Both the position numbers and the translations under genes were made by a program. Positions 2,198 through 52,667 of a DNA stretch of 61,945 nt are shown here, piece after piece. This stretch comes from Oscillospiraceae bacterium. GTDB taxonomy: Bacteria > Bacillota > Clostridia > Oscillospirales > Oscillospiraceae. Where the stretch lies: NCBI GenBank assembly GCA_017479425.1, contig JAFVCD010000042.1, forward strand, positions 1 to 61,945, written 5' to 3'. The notes beneath the pieces were generated by a model. The model was given only the letters and a program-made list of their open reading frames with translations, was not told the origin of the DNA and ran no database searches. The first letter of the stretch is position 1; each line of letters opens with the position of its first letter.

Positions 2198-5100
2198 ATG
2201 AAGAACAACCTATGGACAAAAGCACTCAGCGCGCTTCTGGCAATCGTAATGGTGGTCGGTATGGTTCCGGCAACAACCATTTCGGCGTTTGCAGATGACG
2301 TGTCCGAGACACTCGTAACCTCGCTTGCCGAGCTCTACGACGGCGATGAGGCGAAGGCGAGAGAGGAGCTAAAAGCCCTCTATGACGCCGGACTCATCGA
2401 ATCTGACGGCAGCATGGTGTCGCTTGACATCCGCGAGGACGGCGAAAGCGTAAACCTCGAAGATATAGCGAAGCGCATAGCTGACGGCGAAGAGGTCGGC
2501 GAGCTGACCGTAAACGGCAACGCCGCCGCGCCGGAGAAGCTCACTCAGCTCCAGCAGGTGAACGCTATGCTCGAGGTGCTTCGCCTTATCGACAAGGACA
2601 TTGAGATCACCGACGAGCACGTAGCAAATCTGGAATCGCTTATTGCGGGTATCGCTGACGGCAGCATCGACCTCTCCGGCGTTATTTCGCGCGGCGAGGC
2701 ACAGCTGAGCGCGCCCAAGAGAACTATGCGCCTTCTCGGCGCCGGAAATTCCGATCAGCTGCCCGAAAATACCGGCTCCGGCGAGGTGGAAGCCACTGAC
2801 GGTAAGTACACCGCGCCGTATATTTCCGGAAGCAGTTATGAGGAAAGCCACGAATTTTCCTTAAATGACCCGACTAACACGACCTGGTATACCAATGCCT
2901 CCGGAGCGGATGGCGGAGCGGCTGCCACGGGTGGCGTAGTGACGCTTTCAGCATCGGGCTTTGATCTCGAGTATGATGAAGAAGAGTACAATACTATTAC
3001 TTTCACGGCGTCATTGAACCAGGCGCAGCCGGTTCCCGTAAGCTTCGACTGGACGGCGGTATCAGAAGTCGTTGCTCTGTCCGGCGAGACCGGCGGAACT
3101 ATCACCTGGGAGGCAAATGATACGGAGGATAAGACCTTTACACTTGCCCTCGGAGATAAGAGCGATTATTGGGACGGTTATCTGTGCGTTGTCGTCAACG
3201 CCGGCAACATCAAAAACGCAACGTTTGAAGGCGGCAAAACCGCATGGAGTCAAACAGTGCCGGTTTATGCTTATAACCAAGAAGAAATAACCTATCGAAC
3301 GATCGATCTTCCGACAAATAACTTCCAGAAGTACGAATACAAGTACACAGATTTTTTTGATGGAACTCAGTGTACAAACAGATGGTATTTTACCGAAATT
3401 GAGGACGTATCCCCTCTGACTGATGATTTCAAATTGACCTATGCATTCAGCAAAGGCGCACACGCAAAGATATTTCTGATAAGTCCGGATAATGCCATTG
3501 ATAAGCCCGAAACTGAAGAGTCTTTTACAGAACCCTATGCAAGTTATGATTCCGATGGTTATTCCTTCACAAACAGCGACCTTTATTTTTCGGGAACAGA
3601 GACAGATGAAGTGAGCGAAATCGCAAAAAACGGTAAGGTATGGCTCTACTTCCTTGTTCAGGAATCGGAGTCTCAATCGCTGACCGAATTAAGCGTTTCG
3701 GCTAAGTACATCCCTTTGCACGATGAGGTTGTTGATGTTTCTGTCCCTGCAGGAACCTATTACAGCGGACAAACGATTCCGATCACCTTGACAATGAAGG
3801 AAGGCTCGCAAGCCTTTGGAGACACAAAGCTCACCGTAAACGGGGTTGAATGCCTGATACCGTATTCTAATATAAATGGAAAAAAGATTACATTTATTTA
3901 TACCGTAAGGGAAACGGATGTTGGCTATATCAACGTAACATCTGTTACCGACATGTATGTTCTGGAAGACTGGTTCTGGGATCCTGAACTTGAACGCAGC
4001 GGTCGTAAGGTCGAGCTCGATAATGAATTCCCGGCTGCGAGGTTTGGAAAAAACGAGGGCGTTATCATCGTCGCTGATGTCAAAGGCGCAAGCCTCGACT
4101 GGGAGAATGTGAAATACGGTATTGATGACGCTGACGCCGGCGATCAGACTGTGACGGCTGTTATCCCGTTCAGGGACGGCGCCGACAAGACCTGGGTCGC
4201 CAGTGAAAATATGACTATCACTTCTCCGATCCCCATGTCTGTCCCCGGCTATGAGAACGCCAAGGCGGCAGCTTATCTCAAGAGCGCTTATTTCTCCACG
4301 GACGGCGGCGCGACTCGCTACCCCGTTTACGTCATTGATGATGAAACCGTCGATGGCGAAGTCGACGCACTGGCTGTGCGATTTGCCCCGGGCATGAATG
4401 CCACTGCATACCTGCGCAAGGATACTGTGAGCCTCTTCTTTGATACCGAGATCGGCACAACAGTGAAGTATCTGGGCGAGTGGGCGGATAAGAAGGAGGA
4501 CGCAAAGGGCTTTGCCTACTTCACCGCTACTGACGCTGCTGCGCCGGTGTCGGAGGGAAAGAGCCTCAGCTACTATGTCAAGGGCGGCGTTTCGTTTGAC
4601 AAGGATGCGGCTGTAGACAGACCGGACTATGATGAAGCCAATAAATTGAACGGCTTCTATAAATCCGGAGCAGAATACGTCGCTGTTCAGGGCGAGGATT
4701 ATTCAAAGCAGCACGATGTGGAGCTTTGGATAAACGAGGCATTTTACAGAGCCATTTCCAAGGGCGTCCGGGTTGAGGATCCGAATACGTTCGTGCTGAA
4801 CTATCAGTGGAGCGAGCGCAGGAATTTTACCTTTACAGACCCAAAATATTTCACATGGAACTCCGATAACGAGCAGATCGCAACGGTAGTCAAGGATGAG
4901 CAGACCGGCGCGGGACGGATTGCTCTGACCGGCGGCTCAGGAGCGGTTACCATCACACTTACCGTCGGAAACGGCTCTGAGAGCAAAAAATATGATCTTT
5001 CCTTTACGTTCAATGTCCTTGAGGGAAAGACTCCGTTTCTCAATATTCCTGAGTTCTCGCGCAATCGCGTAACTCTGACGGAAACAGCCACCGACGTGCT

Positions 5101-8100: not shown

Positions 8101-11100
8101 GGATATTAACGGTGAGATCGGAATCAGACTTGAGGTCAAGGTGCTGTTTGTAAAATACAAAAAGACCTTCGCCTCCACCGGCTTCAACTGGTCGAAGAAG
8201 TGGAACAAATACGATAATATCCAGGAGAGATGGGCTAAGGACGGAGATGCCGAGCTGTTCGGCTTTACACAGAGCGGCAGAGCCTATTCAATGCGCCTGC
8301 TATCTAACGGCAAAGCGCTCGTAACGATCGAAGGCGGCGGCGAGATCGAAAACCGCGACTATCTTGAGCTTGCAGATCGCACGTGGAACGATGGTGTTCC
8401 CTCCGGCAGACGTCTGCTGAAGGCGGCGGCGCCGATTACAAACGCACTTACGAACGTACAGACAAACGCGTATCCCTACTCGAACCCCGTTCTTGTTGAT
8501 GACGGCAGTATGTTCCTTTACATTTCGGATAACGATAATACTGACGAGGTGCAGAGCGTTGTCAGCTACTCCAGATGGAACGGAAAAGGCTACGACAAGC
8601 CGAAGGCGCTCTATGATACAGAGAACGCCGTACTCGCAGACAGCGATGTTGTCGCCAGCGGCACAAGCGGCGAGAACAGCAAGATCTTTGCCGCGTGGGT
8701 CAAGCAGCAGGAGTCTCCGGACAAGGAGATGAATGACAAGGCTACCAATGATGATCTCGGCATTATGATGAACGCCACGGAAATCTACGCCGGAACCTAT
8801 AACGGCACGGCATGGACGATCGAGCGCCTGACGACCAACAACATGGCGGATATGTCGCCGACAGTGGCAAGCTCCGGCAATAAGGCCATCGTAGCATGGC
8901 GCAGCCTCGCCGCAACAGAAATGCCCGCAGAGAACAGCGAGCAGGACTTCACCATGATGTTCAACGCGGAGAACAACGTCAATTACAGCATCTGGAACGG
9001 TTCTGAGTGGACGGATGCGAAGGTAGCCTACAACGGCGCCGCGGGTACTGTAAACGCCATCGACTCCGCTATGCTCTCCGACGGTACTGCGATCCTCGTT
9101 TACACAGTCCGCACCGGCGAGGAGATCACCGGCACCGAGACCTTCTACACTGTAATAGACGCAAACGGAGACGTTCTCACCACCGGGCGCCTGACAAACG
9201 ATAACTATACCGATACGAACGCTCAGGTCACGGCGGTCGGAAACCGGTTCGTCATCGGCTGGTATTCTGAGCACGACACCGGTGAGAAGGTCACTGATCC
9301 TGAAACCGGAAAAGAAAGCGACGTTGTCGCTCATGACATTCGCCTTGCGCGCATCAGCGCTGACGGCAGCGTAGACGCAGGCTTCCCGGAGAGCATCGGC
9401 GGCGGCTCAGCTTCTGCTATTACATCGGATTTCCGCTTCTCAGCTCCCGCAAACAACGGAGAACTCAAGAATGTATCCATTGTCTGGTCGCAGACAAAGG
9501 GTGATGACGCCGGAGAGTACGAGATAAATGCAATGCGTTTCTATGAAGTCGGTGGAGCGGTGGGAATGACCGCGCCGATAAATATTGCGGAAACAGATAA
9601 GAACTTCACGGTGGATCATTTCGATACCTACACAGATGAAGAGGGCGGCGTCTATGCCCTTGTACTTGGAAGCGATTACAGCTCCGTAGAGGGAATAAGC
9701 GCTTACGACTCTATTGATCTCACGAATCTCCCCGTTGTAGCGACAAATGACGCGGGAGAGAATACTGAGCATCTCAATATCCTCCTTCAGGAGCCGACCA
9801 CTGACATCAAGCTCGGAGCGGGCAGATTCAAGGAGACCGCTATTGAGGTAAAAGCTGAAACCAATCTCTATGAGCTCGTACCCGGACTTGATCTGCCGGT
9901 ACAGTTCACCGTAAAGAACACCGGCGCGAGCACAATTAATAAATTGACCGTTCAGCTTGGAGGCGACATCAAGTCCGTTGATGGTGTTTCGCTCCTGCCC
10001 AACGAGAGCGCGATCGTTACGCTCGTTTATCCCGTTCCCGAGGATAAGGTGGAGGACGTCGATTATACCGTCACGGCGGACGGAACCGCAGAGAACGGCA
10101 CGCTTGTTCTCAACCGCCCCGACGTTGGAATCTCCGGTATGAAGCTTCTGAGCGAGCAGGACGGAAAGCGCACTGTGCAGGTAACGCTTGTTAACGCATC
10201 CGGAATACCGCTCAAGGGAAGCGGAAAGAGCGTCAAGCTCGGACTCTATACGAGTGATGACCACGAGGAAGAGAATCGCGTCGGCGAGATCATCACGATC
10301 TCCGGCTCAAAAGCTCTCGCAGACATCGACGACGGCTTCTACGGCGCAGCGCAGACCATTAACGTTGAGGACCTTATAGACGGCGCTGAGGAGATCCCCG
10401 ACGAGGGCGTCCGGCTCTATGCTTATGCCTGGGTAGAGGATTGCGACGAGCTTTACACCAACAACAACGGCGGGATTCTTGCGTTCAAGGGACTTCTTAC
10501 AAAGAACGACGGCGAGGTCATTACCGTTGACACCAGTATCGAGGCAAGGACAGAGAACGAGTCCGGCGTTTACGTTGTCAATGTTGATGCTCAGAATAAC
10601 TCTCTGCAGGAGCAGAAGCTCGGCAAGCCGGTAGCGATCCTTGTGGATAGCGAGGGAGAGGAGCTTGCGCAGATGGATATGCTTTCCGATCCTCTGACGC
10701 TTGGCAAAGAGGCGAGAAGCAGCCTGACCGCGAAGTTTACTGCACAGCAGCTGGGCGGCAAAACGCCTCAGAGTGCAGTCGTTGACTACCGATATAAGGT
10801 TACCTTCAACACAAACGGCGGCGCCGGCACGTTTGAAGATGACTATACCGATACGAATGGTCATCTGACTATCCCGACAACAGAGCCGACGCCTCCGACG
10901 GCGGAACCGGAGCTGTTCTTTGCCGGCTGGTACACAGCGGCTCAGGGCGGCGAAAAGATTACGGATGACTATACGTTCGCGGAGAACGCGACGGTATATG
11001 CTCATTACGTAACCCACCAGCACAGCTGGGTCAACTTCACTGTAGATCCCGAGAATGCCGCGACTATCAGCGCAACCTGTGGCAATACTATCGGACATAT

Positions 11101-13903
11101 TGGCGAGCCCGGCGCGACGATGACGATCAACGCTCCGACGCTCGCAGTCTACGGCGGAACCGGAAGTGCTGAGGCGACAGTCACGAATAACATCGAAGAT
11201 GTGACCGTGCCGACAATCGTTTACAAGCAGGGCGAGACAGTCCTCAATGCCGCACCGACAGACGCGGGAACCTATACGGCAAGCATCACGCTCGAAGGCG
11301 TGGATATCGGCAACGGACAGACCGGCAGCGTCACCGCAAGCGTAACCTACACCATCGAGAAGGTCGAGATAAAGGGCATACTTGTAGAGCTCAGCGATTA
11401 CAGCTATGACGCTGACACAGCACCCGCACCCGCGCTTAGTAACGAAGCTGACGGCAATCTGACGTTGGTATACAGTGATACCACCAAGAGCGTGAAGTAT
11501 TACTACAAGGCGACCTCGTTCCTCAGAACAGAGCTTGAAAACCTTGACGCGCTTGCGGAGACTGACGGCGTTTACACCGAGCTTACCGCTACTACCTTCG
11601 AGCCGGGTACGCACTACGTCCTCGCGGTGATCTCAGGAAACAACTATTCAAATGTTTACACCACCCAGAGCGCGTTCAGGGTCACGAAGAACGAGGCTGC
11701 GGTACGTACAGCGCCGCAGGCTCCTGCTGTCGAGGGCGACACCGTAACGGTAGCAGAGGAAGACAGAGAAAAGGAGCTTGAGTATTCGCTCGACAACGGC
11801 AAGACCTGGCTTCCCGTTACGCTCGACGAGAACGGACAGTTCAAGGCAGAGTCCGCAAACCCGATCGAGGCGAACGTACAGCTGCGCGAGAAGGCTGACG
11901 AGAACTACGGAAAGACCTCTGAGGCCGCAAAGGCAGAGGAAAAAGTAACGATCACTACCATCACCGTGACCTATGACGCAAACGGCGGCGTAAGCGCACC
12001 GGAAGCTGTCAAGGCTGAGGGCGGCAAGACCGTTACAGTTTCCGGCAAGGTGAATATGACCCGCAAGGGCTACACCTTCGCAGGCTGGAACACCGAAGCG
12101 GACGGCACCGGCACCGCATACAAGGCGGGAGATAAGCTCAGTACCGGACTTACCCTCTATGCTCAGTGGACGGCGAATGCTTATAAGGTCAGCTTCAACG
12201 CCAACGGAGGCAAGGGCTCTATGGAGGAGATGAGCTTCACCTACGACGAGGCTCAGGCTCTTACGAAGAACGCCTTTGAGAGAACGGATTACAACTTCAT
12301 CGGCTGGTCTAAGTCCGCAAACGGAAGCGTAGAGTATCAGGATGAGAAGAGCGTTAAGAATCTCACCGAAAACGGCACTGTAACACTCTATGCTGTCTGG
12401 GCAAAGGAGCTCTACGATATAACCGGCTCTGTCAGCACAGAGAACAGCGGCGAGATCAAGGTCAAGCTCGTTCAGGGCAAGAACACCTTCGGCGAGGCAA
12501 TCGCAGACAATAATAAGCAGTTCAAGCTGTCGAGCGTACCTGCGGGAACCTACAACCTCGTCATTACTCAGGGCGACGCTGTTAAGAACATGACAGTGAC
12601 CGTCGCTGACGGGAACGTCGCGCTTGACCTGATCGAGATGCCGAACGGCAACACGAGCGCAGTCTTAGCAGTCAGCGATGAAGCTCCTGCAATCGTAGTC
12701 AAGGGAATCGACGAGATCGCAGCCGCAGAGGAGATCGACGGCCGCAAGGTAAAGGTCGAGGTTTCTATCGAAGCACAGAATGAGGCCGAGGCAGGTGAAG
12801 CAGGCGAGACGATAATGAAGGAGAGCCGCGCGCAGAACGTTGAGTTCATCAATCTTGCAGCAAACAAGACGATCTACAATAACGGCACTCCCGAGGCAAA
12901 CGAAACGATGGATAAAGCGAGCGGAATCATTGAGCTTGCTATCCCGTATGACTTCAGCGGAAAGACCGGAATCAAGCTCTATCGCTGCACCGACGGCAAG
13001 GCAGAACAGCTGACTGAGACTAAGGATGAGATTTCTGACGGCACCTACAAGCTCGATCAGAAGGCAGGAGTCATCTACGTCTACACAAGCAGCTTCTCCA
13101 CCTATGCGATAACCTATAATAACTACAGCAGTTTTGTATCCGATTACGAAACAATAATCAATGATACAGAGCACGGCACCTTAACCGTTGAGCCGAAGAG
13201 AGCTCAGTCAGGTAAGAAGGTAGTTATTACCGTAACACCGGACGAGGGCTATAAGCTTGAAAAGCTCGAGGTAAAGGGTCTGTTCGGCACCGAAATTGAG
13301 CTCACAGAGAACGAGGTCGGCGCCTTCAGCTTCACCATGCCGAATGCAAACGTCACTGTAAGCGCAAAGTTTGCAAAGGTCAAGTTTGTTGACGTTTCGG
13401 AGAACAGCTACTACGCAAAGGCTGTCGATTGGGCAGTTGAGAAGGGCATCACGAACGGCGTTGACAAAACGCACTTCGCGCCGGACGCGACCTGCACGAG
13501 AGCGCAGGCGGTGACCTTCCTCTGGAGAGCACTTGGATGCCCGGAGCCTACGGCAGCGAAGTCCGAGTTCACCGACGTTGCGGAAGGAGCGTTCTATTTT
13601 AAGGCACTCCTTTGGGCGGCCGAGAACGGCGTAACGAACGGCTACGGCGACGGAAAGTTCGGAGTGAACGATACCGTCAACCGCGCACAGATGGTAACCT
13701 TTATGGAGCGCGCGATGAAGGGCAAGGCAAAGACTGCTGAGAGCTTCACTGACGTACCCGAGGGTGCCTACTACGCCGACGCGGCAGCGTGGGCGAAGGA
13801 GAACGGAATTTCCGAAGGCATCGGCGAAGGTAAGTTCGGCGGCGAAACTGACTGCCTCCGCGCTCAGATCGTGACTATGCTTTACAGATATTTCGTGAAG
13901 TAA
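2198..13903 (+). CDS. giant secreted multidomain SLH surface protein (3,901 aa)
   Basis: The ATG at 2198 is chosen because it follows GGAAGGAGA and opens a clean signal peptide (MKNNLWTKALSALLAIVMVV, with AFA-DD as likely cleavage site). The long ectodomain is beta-rich and mostly unassignable. Visible parts are an Asp-rich run of six Asp near residue 1826, CARDB-like and Ig-like stretches, three Listeria-Bacteroides/InlB-type repeats near 2866-2940, 3252-3324 and 3328-3402 (motifs FNTNGG, YDANGG, FNANGG with a GWxxxxxG core), and a carboxypeptidase-regulatory-like fold near 3405-3480. Just before the end is a TPDEGYKLEKLEV bacterial repeat, and three SLH repeats close the protein (about 3728-3901). 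It is therefore exported and wall-anchored, probably an adhesin or matrix protein. No catalytic motif was found. It is monocistronic, with an attenuator-like leader and a strong terminator. Confidence 0.95.
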   Translation: MKNNLWTKALSALLAIVMVVGMVPATTISAFADDVSETLVTSLAELYDGDEAKAREELKALYDAGLIESDGSMVSLDIREDGESVNLEDIAKRIADGEEVGELTVNGNAAAPEKLTQLQQVNAMLEVLRLIDKDIEITDEHVANLESLIAGIADGSIDLSGVISRGEAQLSAPKRTMRLLGAGNSDQLPENTGSGEVEATDGKYTAPYISGSSYEESHEFSLNDPTNTTWYTNASGADGGAAATGGVVTLSASGFDLEYDEEEYNTITFTASLNQAQPVPVSFDWTAVSEVVALSGETGGTITWEANDTEDKTFTLALGDKSDYWDGYLCVVVNAGNIKNATFEGGKTAWSQTVPVYAYNQEEITYRTIDLPTNNFQKYEYKYTDFFDGTQCTNRWYFTEIEDVSPLTDDFKLTYAFSKGAHAKIFLISPDNAIDKPETEESFTEPYASYDSDGYSFTNSDLYFSGTETDEVSEIAKNGKVWLYFLVQESESQSLTELSVSAKYIPLHDEVVDVSVPAGTYYSGQTIPITLTMKEGSQAFGDTKLTVNGVECLIPYSNINGKKITFIYTVRETDVGYINVTSVTDMYVLEDWFWDPELERSGRKVELDNEFPAARFGKNEGVIIVADVKGASLDWENVKYGIDDADAGDQTVTAVIPFRDGADKTWVASENMTITSPIPMSVPGYENAKAAAYLKSAYFSTDGGATRYPVYVIDDETVDGEVDALAVRFAPGMNATAYLRKDTVSLFFDTEIGTTVKYLGEWADKKEDAKGFAYFTATDAAAPVSEGKSLSYYVKGGVSFDKDAAVDRPDYDEANKLNGFYKSGAEYVAVQGEDYSKQHDVELWINEAFYRAISKGVRVEDPNTFVLNYQWSERRNFTFTDPKYFTWNSDNEQIATVVKDEQTGAGRIALTGGSGAVTITLTVGNGSESKKYDLSFTFNVLEGKTPFLNIPEFSRNRVTLTETATDVLFSSNVTQCNAAVNKGTTFTAKLYKVDAVGDEPAGEPSWTGSFESTAANTLTHITVPADKLTVTGTYAVVVSTRYEGGVTENVNTAPEKLSAAAYLTVKQAPVKVTLKTLDSYSADYKSLPRIEYTVTPSTAKALVEYTIQKSGETVGERKTATDGVIPFAAEKPEGLKEAYTITVYAKAADAADEEAWSVDSMLIRVYNTDMLELIVKNVIKGEIGGTTGGTGENANGTTVNMDNHGKLAGYGITDESIKLTVDDLNALRADMSLQKIISANYGTGVWGLLSDKMQWTSSDGDLVSINYKQGGVYSDIRNFSYTSYGPATDFLLVGKGDTEGDGVTITATHAATGKTASVNVKADTLKDQLYVFQFNPKTETTVTYTNGAGKQQTLTSDENGVLAVYEPEGIASSVMAMSTGEKDGASVTYVGTIFHNDLQSGERDVASLQLYPCNNLRLRSVSNVTLTFRKPDGSAYEGEVKLRAGVYKNGEYCPNAKSFFADNIENKFGEKDDITANLTDGKLTLGFNPTEFRNKDKDSGADSSDKIVYAFEYRAAGYQTGYALVNVSTDMDGEQNPTDSVIRLAELRGSENVPQIIRQTIRQFTGGKPLPYTRDVTDYTENIGLSKRIDKVILTTDFTLPESLLTEDEHGNVSLSGEFELYTTGGRKLTGQTDYRNSKEDKITNLSTLEQTNLFVFPFSTTHIGRHVYTLTDDNLKADGISDKGGNSVASSRIKAMFVRDGMTLTSVTMPFGISNLSNQDPNDGASAAASSINSTLKSKMSIGEVFKSINVNSMLKKGFTFLSGLSASGGDMPLSLLILPTEDPGVFRLAAFVGKNQEKNKGNQDGVKIEYDEDTMYEDLNSLMDDDDDDGGEGSYDVSFSGTLVLEAGYDFNKKEWAIDFRGGKVGLAFNAKYEWSQNFMCGPVPANISFGAGANAVVEVSFASKSSVKLMLVDATIGVYIEAFAGLGFDATIAKLKLGIYGRIGANVNFLLLSDFKKNPSTGTKLDINGEIGIRLEVKVLFVKYKKTFASTGFNWSKKWNKYDNIQERWAKDGDAELFGFTQSGRAYSMRLLSNGKALVTIEGGGEIENRDYLELADRTWNDGVPSGRRLLKAAAPITNALTNVQTNAYPYSNPVLVDDGSMFLYISDNDNTDEVQSVVSYSRWNGKGYDKPKALYDTENAVLADSDVVASGTSGENSKIFAAWVKQQESPDKEMNDKATNDDLGIMMNATEIYAGTYNGTAWTIERLTTNNMADMSPTVASSGNKAIVAWRSLAATEMPAENSEQDFTMMFNAENNVNYSIWNGSEWTDAKVAYNGAAGTVNAIDSAMLSDGTAILVYTVRTGEEITGTETFYTVIDANGDVLTTGRLTNDNYTDTNAQVTAVGNRFVIGWYSEHDTGEKVTDPETGKESDVVAHDIRLARISADGSVDAGFPESIGGGSASAITSDFRFSAPANNGELKNVSIVWSQTKGDDAGEYEINAMRFYEVGGAVGMTAPINIAETDKNFTVDHFDTYTDEEGGVYALVLGSDYSSVEGISAYDSIDLTNLPVVATNDAGENTEHLNILLQEPTTDIKLGAGRFKETAIEVKAETNLYELVPGLDLPVQFTVKNTGASTINKLTVQLGGDIKSVDGVSLLPNESAIVTLVYPVPEDKVEDVDYTVTADGTAENGTLVLNRPDVGISGMKLLSEQDGKRTVQVTLVNASGIPLKGSGKSVKLGLYTSDDHEEENRVGEIITISGSKALADIDDGFYGAAQTINVEDLIDGAEEIPDEGVRLYAYAWVEDCDELYTNNNGGILAFKGLLTKNDGEVITVDTSIEARTENESGVYVVNVDAQNNSLQEQKLGKPVAILVDSEGEELAQMDMLSDPLTLGKEARSSLTAKFTAQQLGGKTPQSAVVDYRYKVTFNTNGGAGTFEDDYTDTNGHLTIPTTEPTPPTAEPELFFAGWYTAAQGGEKITDDYTFAENATVYAHYVTHQHSWVNFTVDPENAATISATCGNTIGHIGEPGATMTINAPTLAVYGGTGSAEATVTNNIEDVTVPTIVYKQGETVLNAAPTDAGTYTASITLEGVDIGNGQTGSVTASVTYTIEKVEIKGILVELSDYSYDADTAPAPALSNEADGNLTLVYSDTTKSVKYYYKATSFLRTELENLDALAETDGVYTELTATTFEPGTHYVLAVISGNNYSNVYTTQSAFRVTKNEAAVRTAPQAPAVEGDTVTVAEEDREKELEYSLDNGKTWLPVTLDENGQFKAESANPIEANVQLREKADENYGKTSEAAKAEEKVTITTITVTYDANGGVSAPEAVKAEGGKTVTVSGKVNMTRKGYTFAGWNTEADGTGTAYKAGDKLSTGLTLYAQWTANAYKVSFNANGGKGSMEEMSFTYDEAQALTKNAFERTDYNFIGWSKSANGSVEYQDEKSVKNLTENGTVTLYAVWAKELYDITGSVSTENSGEIKVKLVQGKNTFGEAIADNNKQFKLSSVPAGTYNLVITQGDAVKNMTVTVADGNVALDLIEMPNGNTSAVLAVSDEAPAIVVKGIDEIAAAEEIDGRKVKVEVSIEAQNEAEAGEAGETIMKESRAQNVEFINLAANKTIYNNGTPEANETMDKASGIIELAIPYDFSGKTGIKLYRCTDGKAEQLTETKDEISDGTYKLDQKAGVIYVYTSSFSTYAITYNNYSSFVSDYETIINDTEHGTLTVEPKRAQSGKKVVITVTPDEGYKLEKLEVKGLFGTEIELTENEVGAFSFTMPNANVTVSAKFAKVKFVDVSENSYYAKAVDWAVEKGITNGVDKTHFAPDATCTRAQAVTFLWRALGCPEPTAAKSEFTDVAEGAFYFKALLWAAENGVTNGYGDGKFGVNDTVNRAQMVTFMERAMKGKAKTAESFTDVPEGAYYADAAAWAKENGISEGIGEGKFGGETDCLRAQIVTMLYRYFVK

Positions 13904-44433: not shown

Positions 44434-46515
44434 TTACTTTACGCTGAAAAGTATTTCGCCGTAGGTCGGGAAGGGCCAATATTCCTTTGCGGTAAGCTCC
44501 TCAGCCTTATCTGCGGGGAAACGGAGAGCGCTCATTTTCGGGATAATCTCGTCCTTGACGAAAAACGCCTCCTCAGTTATGCCGGATATGGAATCGAGAC
44601 GCGCGACAGCGTCCTCCAATTCTGCGGCGGCAGAATATATCTCGTCCGTCAGAGCCGATAGCCTTTCTGCGGTAGCTTTTTCATATTTGCAGCCAAAGCC
44701 ACTCTTTTTCTCCGCATTTTCGCACAATTTCGCGCTATATACGCTGACTGCGGGAAGTATCTCCTTGCGCGCCATGTTCAGCATAGTGTTCGCCTCTATA
44801 TGAACGGTCTTTACATAGTTTTCAAGCTGGATTTCATAGCGGGAACGAATTTCCTCTTCGCTGAAAACACGCTGATGAGTGAGCATTGCCATATTTTCCT
44901 GCGCAATAAGAAGCTGCATGGCGTCGGGAGTGGTTTTAAGATTCAGAAGTCCGCGCCTTTCGGCTTCTGCTATCCATTTATCGTCGTAGCCGTTGCCGTT
45001 GAAGATTATCCTCTTATGCTCGCATATAGTGCGTCGGATAAGCTCATGGAGAGCTGAGTCAAAGTCCTCTGCTTTCTCAAGCTCATCGGCAAACTCCTCC
45101 AAGGTCTGGGCAACTGCGGAGTTCAGCATTATATTTGCGCAGGCGATGGAATCAGAGGAGCCGACCATGCGGAACTCAAACTTGTTTCCCGTGAAGGCGA
45201 AGGGAGAGGTGCGGTTGCGGTCTGTCGTATCACGGGTAAAGGCGGGCAGAGAGTCAACGCCGAGACGCATTCTGCGCCGCTCTGCGCCGTCGTAATGCGC
45301 GTCCTTCTCGATGGCTTCGAGAACGGCGTTAAGCTCATCGCCGAGGAAAACAGAAATGACCGCCGGAGGCGCCTCGTTTGCCCCGAGACGGTGGTCGTTG
45401 CCGGCGGTTGCCACGCTTAAACGCAGGAGTCCCTGATAATCATCGACCGCCTTTACCGTGGCGACGAGGAAGGTGAGAAACTGAGCGTTTTCATAGGGCG
45501 TTTTTCCGGGAGAGAGCAGGTTTTCGCCGGAATCCGTAGAAAGCGACCAGTTGTTGTGCTTACCGGAGCCGTTCACGCCGGCAAAGGGCTTTTCGTGGAG
45601 CAGACATACAAGATCATGCTTTGCGGCAACGCGGCGCATAATCTCCATCGTAAGCTGATTGTGGTCGGTGGCGACGTTTGTCGTGGAGTAGATCGGCGCA
45701 AGCTCGTGCTGTCCCGGCGCGACCTCGTTGTGCTCGGTCTTTGCAAGGATCCCGAGCTTCCACAGCTCCTCATTGAGCTCGGACATATACGCCTGCACCC
45801 GCGGCTTGATGGCGCCGAAATAGTGGTCGTCAAGCTCCTGACCCTTGGGCGGCTTCGCGCCGAAGAGCGTTCTGCCGGTATAGACGAGGTCGCGGCGCTT
45901 CTCATAGACAGATTTATCTATGAGAAAATACTCCTGCTCCGGACCGACAGAGGTGGTTACGCGCTTTACATTTTCATTTCCGAAAAGGCGAAGTATCCGG
46001 AGCGCCTGCCTGTTCAGCGCCTCCATGGATCTCAGAAGCGGAGTCTTTTTATCCAGAGCTTCCCCGCCGTAGGAGCAGAAGGCGGTGGGTATGCATAGGG
46101 TCTTATCCTTTATAAAGGCATAGCTTGTGGGGTCCCACGCGGTGTAGCCCCTTGCTTCAAAGGTCGCGCGAAGTCCTCCGGAGGGAAATGAGCTGGCGTC
46201 CGGCTCGCCCTTTATAAGCTCCTTGCCGGAAAATTCCATTATCACGCGCCCGTCTATATCGGGAGAAATAAAGCCGTCATGCTTCTCGGCGGTGATGCCG
46301 GTCATCGGCTGGAACCAATGGGTAAAATGGGTCGCGCCGTTCTCGGTCGCCCATGCGCACATCGCCTTTGCGACTGCGTTGGCAACTGAGAGATCGAGCT
46401 CTCTGCCCTCTGCGATGGTATTATGCAGGCTGTTATAGACCTCCTTCGGAAGAGTCTCCTTCATAACGCGATCATCAAAAACCTTGCTTGCAAAAATTTC
46501 GGGAACTGTATTCAT
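44434..46515 (-). CDS. glnN: glutamine synthetase type III
   Basis: This 693-residue protein, the usual GSIII length, starts at ATG 46515 behind CAGGAGATG. GSIII signatures are visible: [30 protein letters not shown] (metal-binding Glu), [31 protein letters not shown] and [18 protein letters not shown]. It makes glutamine from glutamate and ammonia with ATP. It lies opposite glmS with a divergent control region. Its short leader contains a terminator whose 5' arm can instead fold into a small hexaloop hairpin, so expression is probably controlled by antitermination. Confidence 0.97.
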
Positions 46516-46532: not shown

Positions 46533-46571
46533 AAAAAAAGAGACAGGGACGCCGAAAGACGTCCTTGTCTC
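46533..46571 (-). promoter_or_regulatory. attenuator leader of glnN with ANTAR-like hexaloop hairpin
   Basis: Minus strand: a 12-position stem (46571-46560 with 46551-46540, one mismatch) followed by TTTTTTT is an intrinsic terminator. Its 5' arm can instead form AGAC-[AAGGAC]-GTCT (46570-46557), a hairpin with a six-base loop having A1 and G4, as required by ANTAR proteins. The two folds exclude each other. Confidence 0.7.
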
Positions 46572-46580
46572 ATAAGCGAG

Positions 46581-46609
46581 AGTATAATCCATAATACGCA
46601 ACTCGTCAA
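46581..46609 (-). promoter_or_regulatory. sigma-A promoter of glnN
   Basis: Minus strand TTGACG (46609-46604), 17-base spacer, TATACT (46586-46581). The predicted transcript begins about 3 bases before the hexaloop hairpin. Confidence 0.7.
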
Positions 46610-46666
46610 TCGTCAAAACTGCAAAAATTTATGCGGCTCCGGAATAATTTTTGTTAAATGCATAAA

Positions 46667-46699
46667 TTGACGAGAAGTGCTTTCAAATAGTAATATAAT
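46667..46699 (+). promoter_or_regulatory. sigma-A promoter of glmS
   Basis: TTGACG (46667-46672), 18-base spacer, TAATAT (46691-46696), with an overlapping TATAAT at 46694-46699. The transcript would begin at about 46703-46706, at the first leader hairpin. Confidence 0.6.
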
Positions 46700-46702
46700 A
46701 TC

Positions 46703-46762
46703 AGAACAAAGGCGTTCTCAAAAGGGCTTTCTGCGCCCTTTGAGGGCGTCTTTTCTTTTTTG
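46703..46762 (+). promoter_or_regulatory. attenuator leader of glmS with ANTAR-like hexaloop hairpin
   Basis: P1 is AGAAC-[AAAGGC]-GTTCT (46703-46718), a six-base loop with A1 and G4. P2 is AAAGGGC-(7)-GCCCTTT (46721-46741). A terminator-like stem GCGCCC-(5)-GGGCGT (46733-46749) followed by CTTTTCTTTTTT overlaps and competes with P2. No glmS ribozyme is present in this short leader. Confidence 0.7.
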
Positions 46763-46775
46763 GAGGCGATAAAAA

Positions 46776-48602
46776 ATGTGCGGAATAGTAGGCTTTACAG
46801 GAACGAGAGACGCCTCGGAGGTGCTTCTGGACGGACTTGCTCGGCTTGAATACCGCGGATATGATTCAGCCGGAATCGCCGTAATGACAAAGGGCGGAAT
46901 AGAGCTTGAAAAGGTCAGCGGAAAGGTTTCCCGCCTGAGGGAAAGAGTGAACCTCAGTGAAAAGGTGCGGGGAGAGAGCGGCATCGGACACACAAGATGG
47001 GCGACTCACGGCGCCCCTACGGACACAAACGCGCACCCGCATCTCTCAAATGACGGGCGCTTTGCGGTAGTCCATAACGGAATAATCGAAAACTACGCCT
47101 CGCTGAGAAAGGAGCTTATGGCGAAGGGCTTTACCTTTCTGAGCGAAACTGACACAGAGGTCATCGTGCATCTTCTGGAGTATTACGACAAGGGAAACGT
47201 CAAAAATGCGGTTATGAAGACGGTATCTCGCCTTGAGGGCTCTTATGCTCTCGGCGTTATTTGTACGGACACTCCGGGAATGCTGTATGCAGTCAAGGAG
47301 GCAAGTCCGCTCATTCTCGGCGTCGGCGCCGGAGAGAGCTTTTTTGCCTCCGACGTAACGGCGCTCGTAGCATATACAAAAAATGCTATTTATCTTGACG
47401 ACGGCGAATTTGCAGAGCTTACGCCGGAGAGCATCACGGTATTTGACCGCGCCGGCAGAAAGATCGAAAAGAGCGTAACGCCGGTGACGTGGGATATTGA
47501 AGCTGCTGAAAAGGGCGGATATGAGCATTTTATGCTGAAGGAGATCATGGAACAGCCGGCGGCGGTACGAGCCGCCATCGAGCCGAGACTCAGGGACGGA
47601 GAGGTCACGATACCCGAGCTTACTCTCACAGATGAGGAGCTTGCCGGGATCAATAAAATTACGATAACCGCCTGCGGCAGCGCCTATTACGCGGGCTGTG
47701 CGGCAAAATACGCCCTTCAGGCGCTGACGGGGCTTCCGGTGGAAACAGCGCTTGCCAGCGAGCTGAGGTATTCGGAGCCGATAATCGACACACACACCCT
47801 GCTTATCGCCATCAGTCAGTCCGGCGAGACTGCGGATACCATAGCCGCGATCAAGGAGTGCAAGGGCAGAGACGCAAGGGTTCTTGCCATAGTAAACGTA
47901 GTCGGAAGCACTATTGCAAAAATAGCCGATATGACAATGTACACCTATGCGGGGCCGGAGATCGCCGTCGCCACCACAAAGGGCTATACCACTCAGCTTG
48001 CGGCGCTTTTTATGCTTGCGGTCGCAATCGGCAAGAGGCTCGGAAGAGCGGACGGCGAGAAATGCGCCGCGCTGACGGGTGAGATCGCCCGGCTCCCGAG
48101 GCTCATTCAGAACGCGATAGATATGAACCACAGAATAAAGGCTCTTGCGAAAAAATACGCAGCATCAAAATCCCTCTTCTTTATCGGCAGAAATACCGAC
48201 TGGGCGTCAGCCCTTGAGGGGGCACTCAAAATGAAGGAAATATCCTACATCCACGCGGAGAGCTACGCCGCCGGCGAGCTGAAGCACGGCACTATCGCAC
48301 TTATCGAGGAGGGTACACCGGTGATAGCTGTAAGCTGCAACGAAAGGCTTTTCGACAAAACGGCGTCCAATATCATCGAGGTCAAGGCGCGGGGCGCCAA
48401 GGTGCTGGCTATCGCTGTCGCGGGCAACAGAAAAATCGTCTCGCAGGCGGACGATGTTATCTATATACCGGCCGTCAATACGCTCTTTACACCGATTCTG
48501 GCTGTGATACCCATGCAGCTTCTCGCCTACTATGTTGCAAAGGAGAACGGCTGCGATATAGACAAGCCGAAAAACCTCGCAAAAAGCGTAACGGTGGAAT
48601 AA
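46776..48602 (+). CDS. glmS: glutamine-fructose-6-phosphate aminotransferase
   Basis: This 608-residue protein starts at ATG 46776 behind TTGGAGGCG. The N-terminal glutaminase domain begins MCGIVGFTG with nucleophile Cys2 and contains IGHTRWATHGAPT. Two sugar-isomerase domains follow (about 285-430 and 455-600; CGSAYYAGCAAKYALQ, ISQSGETADT, ELKHGTIALIEEGTP), ending in the canonical PKNLAKSVTVE. It makes glucosamine-6-phosphate for cell wall synthesis, using glutamine as nitrogen donor. Control is by the attenuator leader, shared in design with glnN and pyrG. Confidence 0.98.
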   Translation: MCGIVGFTGTRDASEVLLDGLARLEYRGYDSAGIAVMTKGGIELEKVSGKVSRLRERVNLSEKVRGESGIGHTRWATHGAPTDTNAHPHLSNDGRFAVVHNGIIENYASLRKELMAKGFTFLSETDTEVIVHLLEYYDKGNVKNAVMKTVSRLEGSYALGVICTDTPGMLYAVKEASPLILGVGAGESFFASDVTALVAYTKNAIYLDDGEFAELTPESITVFDRAGRKIEKSVTPVTWDIEAAEKGGYEHFMLKEIMEQPAAVRAAIEPRLRDGEVTIPELTLTDEELAGINKITITACGSAYYAGCAAKYALQALTGLPVETALASELRYSEPIIDTHTLLIAISQSGETADTIAAIKECKGRDARVLAIVNVVGSTIAKIADMTMYTYAGPEIAVATTKGYTTQLAALFMLAVAIGKRLGRADGEKCAALTGEIARLPRLIQNAIDMNHRIKALAKKYAASKSLFFIGRNTDWASALEGALKMKEISYIHAESYAAGELKHGTIALIEEGTPVIAVSCNERLFDKTASNIIEVKARGAKVLAIAVAGNRKIVSQADDVIYIPAVNTLFTPILAVIPMQLLAYYVAKENGCDIDKPKNLAKSVTVE

Positions 48603-48628
48603 AAATGCCGCCCGTTTTTGCGGGCGGC
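48602..48628. terminator. hairpin between glmS and pyrG
   Basis: GCCGCCCG / CGGGCGGC (48607-48614 and 48621-48628) with a six-base loop; on the minus strand it is followed by ATTTTT, fitting a terminator for pyrG. It starts just after the glmS stop and may also end that transcript. Confidence 0.75.
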
Positions 48629-48634
48629 AAAGTC

Positions 48635-50230
48635 CTATTTAAGTGCGGCTTTTATGAATGCGACAAACAGCGGATGAGCCTTGTTGGGGCGCGACTTGAA
48701 CTCCGGATGGTACTGGACGCCCACAAAGAACGGATGCCCGCCAAGCTCGATAGTCTCAACAAGGTTTCCGTCCGGACTTGTGCCGGATAATACAAGTCCG
48801 GCTTTTTCAAAATCTGCGCGGAAGTCGTTGTTGAACTCATATCTGTGGCGGTGGCGCTCTGCGATGACCTGGGTCTTGTAGGAGCGCTCCATCACTGTGC
48901 CGGATTTGATGTGGCAGGGCCAGCTTCCGAGGCGGAGCGTTCCGCCCTTATCTATTTCGTCGGACTGCCCGGGCATAAAGTCGATGACCTTGTGTGCGCT
49001 CTTCTCGTCAAATTCGCGGCTCGTCGCGTCCTGCCAGCCTAAAACGCTTCGTGCGTATTCGATGGTGGCGATCTGCATTCCGAGGCATATACCGAAGTAC
49101 GGTGTTTTGCTCTCGCGGCAGTATTTTGCGGCGAGGATCATGCCCTCGATCCCACGCTGACCGAAGCCGCCCGGAACGAGAACTCCGTCAAGCCCGCCGA
49201 GAAGCGCAGAGGCGTTTTCTGTCGTTATGCTTTCCGAGTCTATCCATTCTATATCGACCCTCGCGTCCAGTGCGTAGCCCGCGTGGCGGAGCGCCTCCGC
49301 GACGGAGAGATAGGCGTCGTGAAGCTGAACGTATTTGCCGACGATGGCGATTTTTACGGCTTTTTTGAGGCTCTTTATTCTCTTCACAAGCGCCTCCCAT
49401 TCGGAGAGGTCGGGAGCAGGGGCAAAAATGCCGAGCTCACGGCAGACGACGGAGCTGAAGCCCTGCTTTTCGAGCATAAGGGGCGCTTCATAAAGCGTCG
49501 GAATGGTCACGTTTTCGATCACGCAATCGGGCTTTACGTTACAGAAATGGGCTATTTTTTGAAAAACACCCTCGTCCTCTATGGGCTCATCACAGCGCAG
49601 AACTATTATATCCGGACTTATCCCCATGCCCTGCAGCTCCTTTACGGAGTGCTGCGTAGGCTTCGACTTGTGCTCGCCGCTCGCCTTGAGATAGGGCACG
49701 AGAGTAACGTGGATATAGAGGGAGTTTTCCTTGCCGACCTCGTGACCGACCTGCCGTATCGCCTCGAGAAAGGGCTGGGATTCTATGTCGCCCACGGTGC
49801 CGCCTATTTCGGTTATAACTATGTCGGCTCCGGTCTTTTTGCCGACAGAATAGATAAATTCCTTAATTTCATCCGTCACAGTCGGTATTATCTGCACAGT
49901 GCTTCCGAGGTATTCGCCTCTGCGCTCTTTGGAGATAACGTTCCAATAGACCTTGCCGGTGGTGAGGTTTGAAAAGCGGTTCAGATCCTCGTCGATGAAG
50001 CGCTCGTAGTGTCCGAGATCAAGGTCTGTCTCCGCGCCGTCCTCTGTGACGTAGACCTCGCCGTGCTGATAGGGACTCATGGTTCCCGGATCGACGTTTA
50101 TATACGGATCGAGCTTCTGTGCCGCAACCTTGAAGCCGCGGGATTTCAGAAGTCTGCCGAGTGAAGCCGCTGTAATGCCCTTGCCGAGGCCGGAGACGAC
50201 ACCGCCGGTCACGAAAATGTACTTGCTCAT
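48635..50230 (-). CDS. pyrG: CTP synthase
   Basis: The ATG at 50230 ([27 protein letters not shown] upstream) is preferred over longer in-frame starts that would include the leader. The 531-residue protein has an N-terminal synthetase domain (ATP and UTP binding; [33 protein letters not shown]). The C-terminal glutamine amidotransferase domain has YFGICLGMQ (nucleophile Cys) and GVQYHPEF. It converts UTP to CTP with glutamine nitrogen. It is divergent from the truncated glutamine synthetase gene, and its leader carries an attenuator. Confidence 0.98.
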
Positions 50231-50254
50231 AGTCTGCCCTCCTGTGTTTAAAAA

Positions 50255-50304
50255 CAAAAAAGACAAAAGCGCGCAGAAATCCATCTGCGAGACGCCTTTG
50301 TCTC
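50255..50304 (-). promoter_or_regulatory. attenuator leader of pyrG with ANTAR-like hexaloop hairpin
   Basis: Minus strand P1 is GAGAC-[AAAGGC]-GTCTC (50304-50289), the same loop as in glmS, with A1 and G4. A second hairpin CGCAGA-(6)-TCTGCG follows. The 5' part of P1 (GACAAAGGCG) can instead pair over 10 positions with CGCTTTTGTC (50271-50262) followed by TTTTTTG, giving an intrinsic terminator. P1 and the terminator are therefore mutually exclusive. Confidence 0.75.
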
Positions 50305-50315
50305 TTAACGCTGAA

Positions 50316-50344
50316 ATATTACCGCTTCCGGCGGGGATTGTCAA
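50316..50344 (-). promoter_or_regulatory. sigma-A promoter of pyrG
   Basis: Minus strand TTGACA (50344-50339), 17-base spacer, TAATAT (50321-50316). The predicted transcript starts about 5 bases before P1. The start region is not the GGGC needed for the Bacillus pyrG reiterative-transcription mechanism. Confidence 0.7.
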
Positions 50345-50411: not shown

Positions 50412-51191
50412 ATGGAATACACGCCGAAGGAAGTATTGGAGTATATCCGCGAGGCTGACGTAAAATTTATTCGCCTCGCTATGTGCGATAAGACCGGAAA
50501 GCAGAAAAATATTGCGATAATGCCTTCGGAGCTGAGCAAGGCGCTGGAGGAGGGCGTTGAGATCGACGCTTCGCCCATTGAAGGCTTTGAGGGGAGAATT
50601 ATCCTGAAGCCGGATCTATCGACCCTCTGCGAGCTTCCGTGGCGCCCGCAGCACGGCAGGGTTGTACATTTCTTCTGCGACCTCCTGATGCCGGACGGGA
50701 GCGCTATCGCGGATTATCCGAGAAATATCCTGAAGAGCATAAGCGCCGGCGCAGATACCGCGGTCATTGACCAGAGCTTTTATCTTTTTACTCTCGACGA
50801 AAACGGGTGCGCCACAAAGGTTACTCACGACAAGGCGGGGTATATGGATATTGCCCCGGATGACAAGGGCGAGAACGTTCGCCGCGAGATATGCCTTACG
50901 CTTGAACGCATGGGCATTACGCCGGTCGGCTCTCACCATGAGCGCGGCCCGGGGCAGCATATTGTAAACTGCGCTCCGGTAAAGCTTCTGACTGCGGCGG
51001 ACAACGCGGTCACATTTCGCGCCGTTGTGCGAACGATAGCGGCGCAGTACGGGCTTTTCGCGGACTTTTCAAGCGCTCCGGTTTCCGACGCACCCGAAAA
51101 TTCCGTAAGGCTTACCGTAAACGGCAAAGAACAGAGCGGTGAGCATTTCGGAAAAGACCCCTATATCCTCCTTGCGGACTATTGCAGATGA
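50412..51191 (+). CDS. truncated, probably inactive glutamine-synthetase-like protein (259 aa)
   Basis: AAAGGAG precedes the ATG. The sequence follows GlnA from the N-terminal beta-grasp domain (YTPKEVLEYIREADVKFIRL, SPIEGFEGRIILKPD, LPWRPQHGRV) into the first part of the catalytic domain (VTHDKAGYMDIAPDD, SHHERGPGQHI), then stops. Normal GlnA has about 440 residues. Missing or altered parts are the E-x-E metal site (VIDQSFYLF instead of PECEFFLF), the Glu residues of [10 protein letters not shown], and the whole NGSGMH, ATP and adenylylation half. It has open reading throughout and its own ribosome site, so it is a maintained short gene rather than random debris. It is followed after 37 bases by the ANTAR gene. 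Likely role: a regulatory ligand sensor or partner of ANTAR, by inference. Confidence 0.85.
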   Translation: MEYTPKEVLEYIREADVKFIRLAMCDKTGKQKNIAIMPSELSKALEEGVEIDASPIEGFEGRIILKPDLSTLCELPWRPQHGRVVHFFCDLLMPDGSAIADYPRNILKSISAGADTAVIDQSFYLFTLDENGCATKVTHDKAGYMDIAPDDKGENVRREICLTLERMGITPVGSHHERGPGQHIVNCAPVKLLTAADNAVTFRAVVRTIAAQYGLFADFSSAPVSDAPENSVRLTVNGKEQSGEHFGKDPYILLADYCR

Positions 51192-51228: not shown

Positions 51229-51822
51229 ATGATATTTCAGCCGCGGACTTACGGCGTGATGATCGTATCATCGTCAGAAAAATTCACCTCCGCGACGAAA
51301 GAGCTGCTGCCGATGACGGATTACTGGCCGGTGGAGTCGGCGGAGAGCGCGGGGGCGGCGAGAAGAAAGCTCCTTATGAGGGACTTTGACATTGTAATTA
51401 TCAATTCTCCCCTGACAGACGAATTCGGTACGCAGCTGGCTGAGGATATAACAGCTGAATATTCCTCGGCGGTGCTTCTATTGACAAGGGGCGAGGTTTA
51501 CGAGGATGTGTTTTATAAAGTGCTCGTTTCCGGCGTTGCCTCGCTTCCGAAGCCCATAAACGCGCACACTATGGAAACGGCGCTCAGGATACTTTCCGCA
51601 GAGAGGGAGAGGCTCAGAAAATCCGAGGAAAAGCGCGTTTCCGTAGAGGAGAAGATAGAGGAGATACGCCTTGTAAACAGAGCAAAATGGGCGCTGATCG
51701 AAAAGAGCGGACTGACCGAGGAGGAGGCTCACAGATATATCGAAAGGCTGTCCATGGACAAGCGTATCTCAAAGAGCGCCGCCGCAAAGCTGATAATTAA
51801 TAACGGTGAGAGCCTGAGCTGA
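51229..51822 (+). CDS. ANTAR-domain RNA-binding antiterminator with pseudo-receiver
   Basis: The ATG at 51229 is chosen because GGGAGG lies just upstream; an in-frame start at 51139 would overlap the preceding gene. The 197-residue protein has a receiver-like domain (about 8-125) in which the phosphorylated Asp is Asn59 (IVIINSPL) and the N-terminal acidic pair is absent (MIVSSSE), while the Lys (LPKP, K108) remains. A short coiled coil leads to a C-terminal ANTAR domain (about 138-192; EEIRLVNRAKWALIEKSGLT, then EEEAHRYIERLSMDKRISKSA). ANTAR proteins bind paired hexaloop hairpins and block terminators. Targets are probably the glnN, glmS and pyrG leaders within 5 kb. Because it cannot be phosphorylated at the usual residue, its signal may come from the synthetase-like partner. 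Confidence 0.9.
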   Translation: MIFQPRTYGVMIVSSSEKFTSATKELLPMTDYWPVESAESAGAARRKLLMRDFDIVIINSPLTDEFGTQLAEDITAEYSSAVLLLTRGEVYEDVFYKVLVSGVASLPKPINAHTMETALRILSAERERLRKSEEKRVSVEEKIEEIRLVNRAKWALIEKSGLTEEEAHRYIERLSMDKRISKSAAAKLIINNGESLS

Positions 51823-52143
51823 ACGAACTTATTGGCACCTCCGACTTGTGCTTCATAAGCTCGCCTGCGAAGAGCGAGGAGAGATATTCCTTAAAATACC
51901 TCATGAACATCTCGCCGCCCTCGCAGGATAAAATGCTCTTTATATAGGGGCGGCTGTCGTTCAGATGATAGAGAATATGCGTTATTTCGCCCTCGACGTC
52001 CTTTTCGCGCCCGGAAAAATCGTGGGTCGCCTCCCGGGAAAGCTCATCAGAGAATATATGCTCAAAGATTTCCGTACACAGCGCGCGCAAAAGCTCGTCC
52101 TTCGTCTCAAAATGCGAATAGAAGGTGCTTCGCTTACGCTCGT
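51797..52143 (-). pseudogene. TetR-family regulator fragment
   Basis: On the minus strand the sequence begins inside the helix-turn-helix (KRSTFYSHFETKDELLRALC) and continues through a typical TetR ligand domain (NDSRPYIKSILSCEGGEMFM, FKEYLSSLFAGEL). The N-terminal half of the DNA-binding domain is missing, replaced head-to-head by the P-type ATPase fragment at about 52140. It cannot bind DNA as it stands. Its 3' end overlaps the ANTAR gene end slightly. Confidence 0.75.
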
Positions 52144-52667
52144 TTGCGCGGCGCTTTCCGCTATATCGCTTGTGCTCAGCATAACGGGAGTGCTGAGGGA
52201 CGCTTTACCCGCGGATTTTGCGTGGACTGCGATAATACTCTGCGGCGTTCCCATACTTGTCGGCGCCGTGAAGGGCGTGGTTCTGGAGCACGATATAAAG
52301 GCCGACCTGCTCGTTTCGCTGGAGCTCGTTGCCTCCGTTGCCACGAAGGAATTTCTTGCAGCGGGCGAGGTCGCGCTCACCTCCGCCGACGCAGGCATAG
52401 CTATGGGGGCATAGGGTCGGATATTGCGGTGGAGGCCGCCGACGCGGTTCTCGTGAGCGACGATATAAAGCGCCTGCCGTACCTTTTCGGACTTATGCAG
52501 AGGGTCATGAGAAAGGTGCACGTTAATATAATCGCCTCGCTTATCATAAATCTTACGGCGGTGGTGCTGTCAGCGCTCGGTATCCTCAGCCCCGTGACGG
52601 GCATAACTGCGGCTCGGTTTTTGTGGTGGTGAACGCCGCGCTTTTTGTTAGAGTAAAGGATGAATAA
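52138..52667 (+). pseudogene. heavy-metal P-type ATPase remnant (internal deletion, two frameshifts)
   Basis: Frame one gives the membrane part ALSAISLVLSITGVLRDALP, then CGVPILVGAVKGVVLEHDIK and SLELVASVATKEFLAAGEVA. It then jumps straight to the C-terminal hinge (SADAGIAMG), losing the actuator, phosphorylation (DKTGT) and nucleotide-binding domains. At about 52411 a run of five G shifts the frame: with six G it would read GIAMGGIGSDIAVEAADAVL. A second shift near 52603 leads into HNCGSVFVVVNAALFVRVKD and the natural stop at 52665-52667. This is a metal-export pump reduced to about 15% of its length. Confidence 0.85.

Follow-up and report, generated by a model that had tools for sequence, protein, structure and literature searches.

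Single-hexaloop terminator leaders before glutamine genes of Oscillospiraceae and their predicted control by an adjoining ANTAR protein

In an Oscillospiraceae bacterium, the genes glnN, glmS and pyrG, a glutamine-synthetase I fragment and the gene of an ANTAR protein stand together at positions 44434–51819 of contig JAFVCD010000042.1 (61,945 nucleotides, hereafter the window; it is contig C13 in a draft genome of 1.77 Mb and 84% completeness), which raises the question of whether the three genes are a regulon of that protein and, if so, through which kind of RNA element. An earlier reading of the bare sequence, the original prediction, had proposed ANTAR antitermination at hexaloop hairpins in the three leaders. 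The comparative tests described here support this overall interpretation. We consider it probable, at roughly 0.8, that the three leaders are transcription attenuators under the window's ANTAR protein, with a single hexaloop serving as both landing site and antiterminator, and the sequence comparisons indicate a real, conserved regulatory system and a new form of ANTAR antitermination.

Each leader carries a small hairpin (H1; Table 1) at the predicted place, with A at loop position 1 and G at loop position 4 (A1/G4), and the pair below the closing C-G pair is A-U in all three. Sigma-A hexamers, likewise predicted, were found just upstream for all three genes, leaving 9 (glnN), 6 (glmS) and 11 (pyrG) bases between the −10 box and H1. 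As foreseen for glnN and pyrG, hairpin bases are reused by an intrinsic terminator, so that the two folds exclude each other. The second hairpin that had been invoked to block the glmS terminator is unneeded, since the A1/G4 hairpin itself overlaps the terminator 5′ arm. The folding energies of the three leaders were 3.3–4.8 standard deviations below those of shuffled sequences. Scanning the window against Rfam gave no family at the gathering score and none at the leaders, the sole sub-threshold match being an unrelated isrK at 48570–48627; on this basis a known riboswitch, T-box or glmS ribozyme was rejected.

The core ACAARGRCGT occurs in 37 copies in the bacterium's own genome (15 forward, 22 reverse), compared with 10 (5 + 5) for a reversed-pattern control. 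Stems reach five pairs or more in six of these copies, and only the three window copies have an overlapping terminator besides, as judged from printed folds and T-runs. Two covariance models were built: R1, from 16 leaders (three from the window and 13 from relatives, adjoining ANTAR genes) with H1 as the sole structure, and R2, from 55 leaders of relatives and no window sequence. With R2 the three leaders rank top in the window (E 1.7e-8, 4.8e-6 and 2.7e-4; next match E 0.6) and take ranks 1, 2 and 4 genome-wide; in the genome, the match at C32:90922 (24.1 bits) has no terminator in its fold. Chance occurrence of the three leaders was rejected on the one-by-one listing of core copies, the held-out model R2 and the classes of gene downstream.

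These classes were drawn from 97 matches, namely 112 in 70 fetched loci minus 16 duplicates from overlapping loci, plus the window pyrG leader. Downstream stand glnN (30), a 364-residue class-II amidotransferase (gltB1; 21), pyrG (11) and glnA (7), more rarely guaA (3), asnB, gdhA and amt (2 each), gltB, glmS and purC (1 each); the remaining 16 lie at contig ends or before unclassified or other genes. Of the 57 matches scoring at least 26.6 bits, 51 precede glutamine or nitrogen genes, window and seed leaders included. A script scored an overlapping terminator in 23/30 glnN, 16/21 gltB1 and 9/11 pyrG leaders. In the 364-residue protein we recognise the amidotransferase portion of a glutamate synthase that is split; behind it in locus L182 come a Glu_synthase protein, a GXGXG protein and then glnA. 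A second set, 80 named contigs around ANTAR genes, partly from the same genomes and titled Oscillospiraceae, Ruminococcaceae, Lachnospiraceae, Christensenella and others, yielded 79 matches, of which 73 precede genes of these classes (the class label of L214_4463, a 36-residue match to glnN, being doubtful), and 38 of the 80 loci had a match at E ≤ 0.01. Many of these loci are glutamine superclusters with a central glnA–ANTAR pair, in part with pyrG behind it, and with a split glutamate synthase, glnN–asnB or glnN–glmS on the other flank. The extension of control to CTP synthesis that the original prediction envisaged is thus borne out by conserved, predicted pyrG leaders in many genera. In the nearest relative, G122, an insertion of ~30 bases seems to separate the pyrG hairpin (L241, 3288–3341) from the promoter region. 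Possibly genuine leaders stand before a PPDK_N-like gene (G107, G065, G011), an NMT1-like gene (G084) and an ATP-grasp gene (G083); weak R1 matches before GH3, GH94, GGDEF, SpoIIIAA and Pyr_redox genes were taken as noise. A PPDK_N-domain protein was seen behind leaders in L094, L110 and L103 and near the glnA–ANTAR pair in L188.

The co-occurrence of leader and ANTAR gene was assessed with R1 in 120 genomes of the family, 47 of which carry an orthologue of the window ANTAR gene. At E ≤ 1e-3 the leader was found in 31 genomes: 27/47 with the orthologue and 4/73 without it (Fisher p 2e-10), or 16/36 and 4/73 after removal of 11 seed genomes (p 2e-6). Among near-complete genomes the numbers were 20/34 and 0/43 (p 9e-10), the count of 20 having been made by hand from rounded values and including nine seed genomes, without which 11/25 and 0/43 remain (p 3e-6). 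The laxer cut-off of E ≤ 0.01 weakened the link (31/47 and 14/73, p 3e-7). The four orthologue-free genomes with a leader (G047, G083, G103, G107) are 73, 67, 68 and 79% complete. Absence of leader enrichment near glutamine genes in ANTAR-bearing relatives had been named as what would speak against the original prediction; the enrichment is clear. By Pfam, some ANTAR protein is present in 73 of the 120 genomes. Within the window's own genus the orthologue occurs in 10/34 genomes, and nine fetched same-genus leaders (L243–L251) precede asnB in genomes lacking a close orthologue; these asnB leaders are very short hexaloop-terminators of about 45 bases. Two genomes without the orthologue, G117, which has an asnB leader, and G020, encode an ANTAR domain of more distant kinship, flanked by a glnA-like and a gltB-like gene; no leader was found in G020 at E ≤ 0.1.

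The attenuators might instead answer to another factor, such as an RNA-binding protein, a metabolite or reiterative initiation, which controls pyrG in Bacillus, with the ANTAR neighbour being coincidental. The 20 of 47 ANTAR-bearing genomes without a leader at E ≤ 1e-3 would fit this explanation, as would the circumstance that binding of the ANTAR protein to H1 is a prediction. Its low probability follows from the same element preceding many unrelated genes, the strong co-occurrence with the ANTAR gene, a loop and closing pair that match the requirements of the ANTAR protein EutV, and the lack of any Rfam family at the leaders.

In a covariation alignment of the R2 leaders (55 rows), 93% of H1 cells were paired, compared with 72% in shuffles and 36–45% in slid registers, and 96 cells were changed on both sides, compared with 37 in shuffles. 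The terminator was absent from the search model; unconstrained, RNAalifold returned it from the same columns, with 12 pairs starting at loop position 3, ten of them with compensatory change. The antiterminator and terminator folds both covary. Across 116 leaders, the H1 core paired better with its own terminator arm (mean 10.1) than with swapped (8.4) or shuffled arms (7.0). The mean energy was −4.9 kcal/mol for H1 and −27 kcal/mol for the whole leader, in keeping with an H1 that has to be held by a protein. This much higher stability of the terminator could also be taken to mean that the leaders are constitutive terminators or stabilising 5′ hairpins that are not regulated at all, which we regard as very improbable, given that both of the mutually exclusive folds covary and that a terminator that is not regulated would have no use between a promoter and the gene it drives.

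We then asked how many hexaloops such a leader has, since the original prediction had conceded that a second one was not clear. Pooling gave 170 unique leaders, 148 of the glutamine/nitrogen class, and 142 of these 148 have an A1/G4 loop, a proportion partly selected by the model. An H1 together with a promoter of at least 8/12 matches was present in 130; the 18 left out comprise six with G at loop position 1 and 12 without such a promoter, several of the latter being second units of tandem glnN leaders. The closing pair is C-G in all 130; the pair next to it, A-U in the dual-hexaloop element, is A-U in 53, G-U in 70 and G-C in 7. In 121 of them H1 starts 3–15 bases past the −10 box and therefore lies, in effect, where the transcript is predicted to begin, leaving no room for a second hairpin upstream. 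Downstream, in the 116 of these 121 with a discernible U-run, a search demanding four stem pairs found a second A1/G4 hexaloop in nine leaders and none in 107, with the other fifteen letter pairs giving 2–8 (mean 4.7). The dual hexaloop was thus rejected as the general form. The caveat proved to be justified and to hold throughout the family, whose leader carries a single hexaloop; by its sequence it departs from the published dual-hexaloop element, of which it is a variant form rather than a case.

A minority of leaders may nevertheless be dual, and one could hold that all are classical dual elements whose second A1/G4 hairpin is degenerate or was overlooked. Candidates such as tgagc[AATGGG]gctca in the glnN leader of G031 and the occurrence of tandem glnN leaders with two hexaloop-terminator units would speak for this. 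It appears unlikely, given that nine of 116 is at most a slight excess over other letter pairs and that the −10 box and H1 are at most 15 bases apart in 121 leaders. As positive control, 30 PduV/EutP loci were uninformative and five EutV-type loci were used instead; these gave two canonical-looking dual elements in one locus (L311 of G338) and none in the other four, and with up to five for other letters this control is thin. Tandem units before glnN were noted at L105 2064–2192, L201 4463–4577, L209 4371–4507 and elsewhere, and two such units in a row precede amt at L214 4370–4516.

Published work speaks both for and against a single-hexaloop element under ANTAR control. In its favour, according to the excerpts of the published work on which we draw here and below, EutV requires the A1/G4 loop letters and the closing pairs (PMC3369931), and one EutV dimer binds one hexaloop (PMC8934654). 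Against it, deletion of the first hexaloop (P1) impairs induction of the eut genes (PMC3369931). Both hexaloops are needed although a dimer takes up one, and in answer to the question why, P1 is proposed to recruit and the second, P2, to antiterminate; single-hexaloop sites are said there to need study, and to be expected only where no transcribing polymerase imposes a time limit (PMC8934654). Given that EutV needs two hexaloops in vivo and a fixed linker, one hexaloop might be insufficient here as well. Further points weigh against the element. The nine second hexaloops in 116 leaders are the highest of the sixteen letter-pair counts (Poisson P about 0.05), and six of 148 leaders have a G1/G4 loop. 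As the leaders were found with an H1-containing model, their H1 pairing and loop letters are partly selected. To these are added the ANTAR-bearing genomes without a leader and two features of the protein: the receiver aspartate is kept in 2 of 18 aligned sequences (L066, L134), and, as read by eye from the alignment, Arg142 of EutV is not kept and Tyr164 is replaced by His, as in AmiR.

The comparisons show the anatomy of the leaders, the covariation of both folds, the link to the ANTAR gene and the kinds of gene downstream; ANTAR binding, antitermination, dimerisation, the signal, the direction of control and the transcription start we infer. In the mechanism we propose, the first transcribed bases would fold into the weak H1, with loop AAnGRC closed by C-G. 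An ANTAR dimer on H1 would hold the hairpin and so block the terminator, which reuses the loop and the 3′ arm, and the gene would be read; with the ANTAR protein absent or inactive, the much stronger terminator would form. The single hexaloop at the RNA 5′ end would be landing site and antiterminator in one, needing no second, recruiting hexaloop, and this one element would serve glnN, glnA, glutamate synthase, pyrG, guaA, asnB, gdhA, amt, purC and, in the window, glmS. The signal would most likely come from the adjoining glutamine synthetase or its fragment, not from a kinase, since the receiver of the window protein lacks the usual phosphorylatable residue and its gene lies behind a glutamine synthetase gene. 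By analogy with the regulator NitR, the direction would be activation on nitrogen limitation.

The window ANTAR domain aligns with 1s8n, EutV, AmiR and NasR; of the EutV residues, Lys149 and Glu160 are kept and Lys143 and Lys147 are replaced by Arg (read by eye). Its receiver has Asn at the phospho-acceptor site and no acidic pair, and the 18 aligned proteins have 13 Asn, 2 Asp, 1 Gln, 1 His and 1 Tyr at this site. The original prediction had correctly placed the gene near pyrG; between the start codon of pyrG and the start of the ANTAR gene the distance is about 1,000 bases and not 900, and the glutamine-synthetase fragment standing between them had been omitted. In relatives, the glutamine synthetase before the ANTAR gene has about 400 residues, keeps the motifs around the active site and ends ~40 residues short of the closest enzymes of solved structure. 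In the 259-residue window fragment, EQEF has become DQSF, QNEID has become QHIVN, at positions that are presumably metal-ligand Glu and His residues, and the C-terminal part is absent. The same truncated form (257–259 residues, 63–95% identical) lies directly before the ANTAR gene in G122, G124 and G125, with a dN/dS of 0.14–0.21 (NG86) that indicates purifying selection; the long form is found in two members of the genus, G120 and G126. On these grounds a plain decayed pseudogene at 50412–51188 was rejected, and the fragment is likely a conserved non-enzyme, because sister species share the truncation and the low dN/dS. That it senses glutamine is a guess. A tentative suggestion, to which we give somewhat less than an even chance, is that this clade has turned a glutamine synthetase into a dedicated glutamine or nitrogen sensor that holds or releases the ANTAR protein, that the receiver of the latter has ceased to accept phosphate, that many glutamine makers and users are set together through single 5′-terminal hexaloops, and that genes such as glmS join it behind existing leaders.

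In AmiC–AmiR and NasS–NasT, an ANTAR protein (AmiR, NasT) is held by an adjacently encoded partner without phosphorylation; that partner is a ligand-binding sensor of another fold and not a glutamine synthetase. The eut system of Enterococcus faecalis shares with the window the A1/G4 hexaloop, the C-G closing pair, the terminator overlap and the receiver–ANTAR build (PMC3369931, PMC8934654). It differs in that eut leaders need both P1 and P2, whereas the window leaders have a single hexaloop where the RNA is predicted to begin, and in that EutV needs a phosphorylated receiver, whereas the phospho-acceptor Asp is absent from the window protein and 15 of 17 aligned orthologues. A role of ANTAR proteins at nitrogen genes, those of glutamine and glutamate synthases among them, is known (PMC3369931). 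NitR of Clostridium saccharobutylicum is said to antiterminate and to induce the genes of glutamine synthetase and glutamate synthase on nitrogen limitation (PMC6316151), and the ANTAR gene Clo1313_2030 of C. thermocellum lies inside such a gene cluster (PMC4676874). The likeness to both is an ANTAR protein tied to these two functions, and in relatives of the window the ANTAR gene likewise stands beside glutamine synthetase and glutamate synthase genes, as with NitR-type regulators; the predicted regulon here adds pyrG, guaA, asnB, purC and glmS. Glutamine synthetase as the nitrogen signal to a regulator has a counterpart in glutamine synthetase–TnrA of Bacillus subtilis (PMC6316151), where the regulator binds DNA, whereas here it would be an RNA-binding ANTAR protein and, in the window clade, a glutamine-synthetase fragment. 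Among the matches listed in the open-access literature, no title or abstract dealt with the fragment, with this regulon or with any antiterminator regulon of single hexaloops. With more than 100 predicted natural single-hexaloop terminator leaders that have a promoter and an ANTAR gene, the question of one or two hexaloops becomes testable. ANTAR control would widen from nitrogen assimilation to the amidotransferases feeding CTP, GMP, asparagine and aminosugar synthesis, in hosts that are mostly uncultured gut Clostridia, with a glutamine-synthetase-derived non-enzyme as possible giver of the signal.

How glmS came by its leader can be traced in part. From the promoter through the ribosome-binding site, the window glmS leader can be aligned to its gltB1 counterparts in G124 and G125; the similarity stops near the start codon, and gltB1 is divergent from glnN in both genomes, like glmS in the window. 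Besides the window, no glmS with its own leader was found among the classified matches (97, 79, and 22 of another 30), and R2 detected none at glmS of G120, G124, G125, G126 and G080. A search for gltB1 in the window's own genome, which is 84% complete, found none. From the leader homology and the lack of any other glmS leader in these checks, glmS probably stands where gltB1 stood in the window lineage, which would make it a regulon member gained through capture of a ready-made leader. The proposed extension to aminosugar synthesis thus has a leader of its own in the window, with a conservation narrower than that of pyrG. In 5 of the 80 second-set loci (L143, L146, L148, L151, L152) glmS lies behind glnN at gaps of 16–215 bases, and co-transcription, if it occurs, would place it under the glnN leader; L270 (G036), probably the same contig as L151, has this order too.

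Table 1 Genes and predicted leader elements of the locus (window coordinates)
Feature	Position	Strand	Remark
glnN, type III glutamine synthetase	44434..46515	−	693 aa
glnN leader, intrinsic terminator	46533..46571	−	shares H1
glnN leader H1, predicted antiterminator hairpin	46556..46571	−	GAGAC[AAGGAC]GUCUU
glnN promoter	46581..46609	−	TTGACG - 17 - TATACT, sigma-A type
glmS promoter	46667..46696	+	TTGACG - 18 - TAATAT, sigma-A type
glmS leader H1	46703..46718	+	AGAAC[AAAGGC]GUUCU
glmS leader, intrinsic terminator	46708..46761	+	5′ arm overlaps H1
glmS, glutamine--fructose-6-phosphate transaminase	46776..48602	+	
pyrG, CTP synthase	48635..50230	−	
pyrG leader, intrinsic terminator	50256..50303	−	shares H1
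pyrG leader H1	50289..50304	−	GAGAC[AAAGGC]GUCUC
pyrG promoter	50316..50344	−	TTGACA - 17 - TAATAT, sigma-A type
Truncated glutamine synthetase I fragment	50412..51188	+	259 aa; without metal-binding residues and C-terminal part; conserved in four species
ANTAR protein	51229..51819	+	degenerate receiver (phospho-acceptor Asp -> Asn)

Just 3′ of the ANTAR gene, positions 51797–52090 match a TetR C-terminal domain, and the stretch 51797–52640 has other reading frames that look broken, perhaps decayed genes. Elsewhere in the window, an open frame of 3,915 codons extends over 2156–13903.

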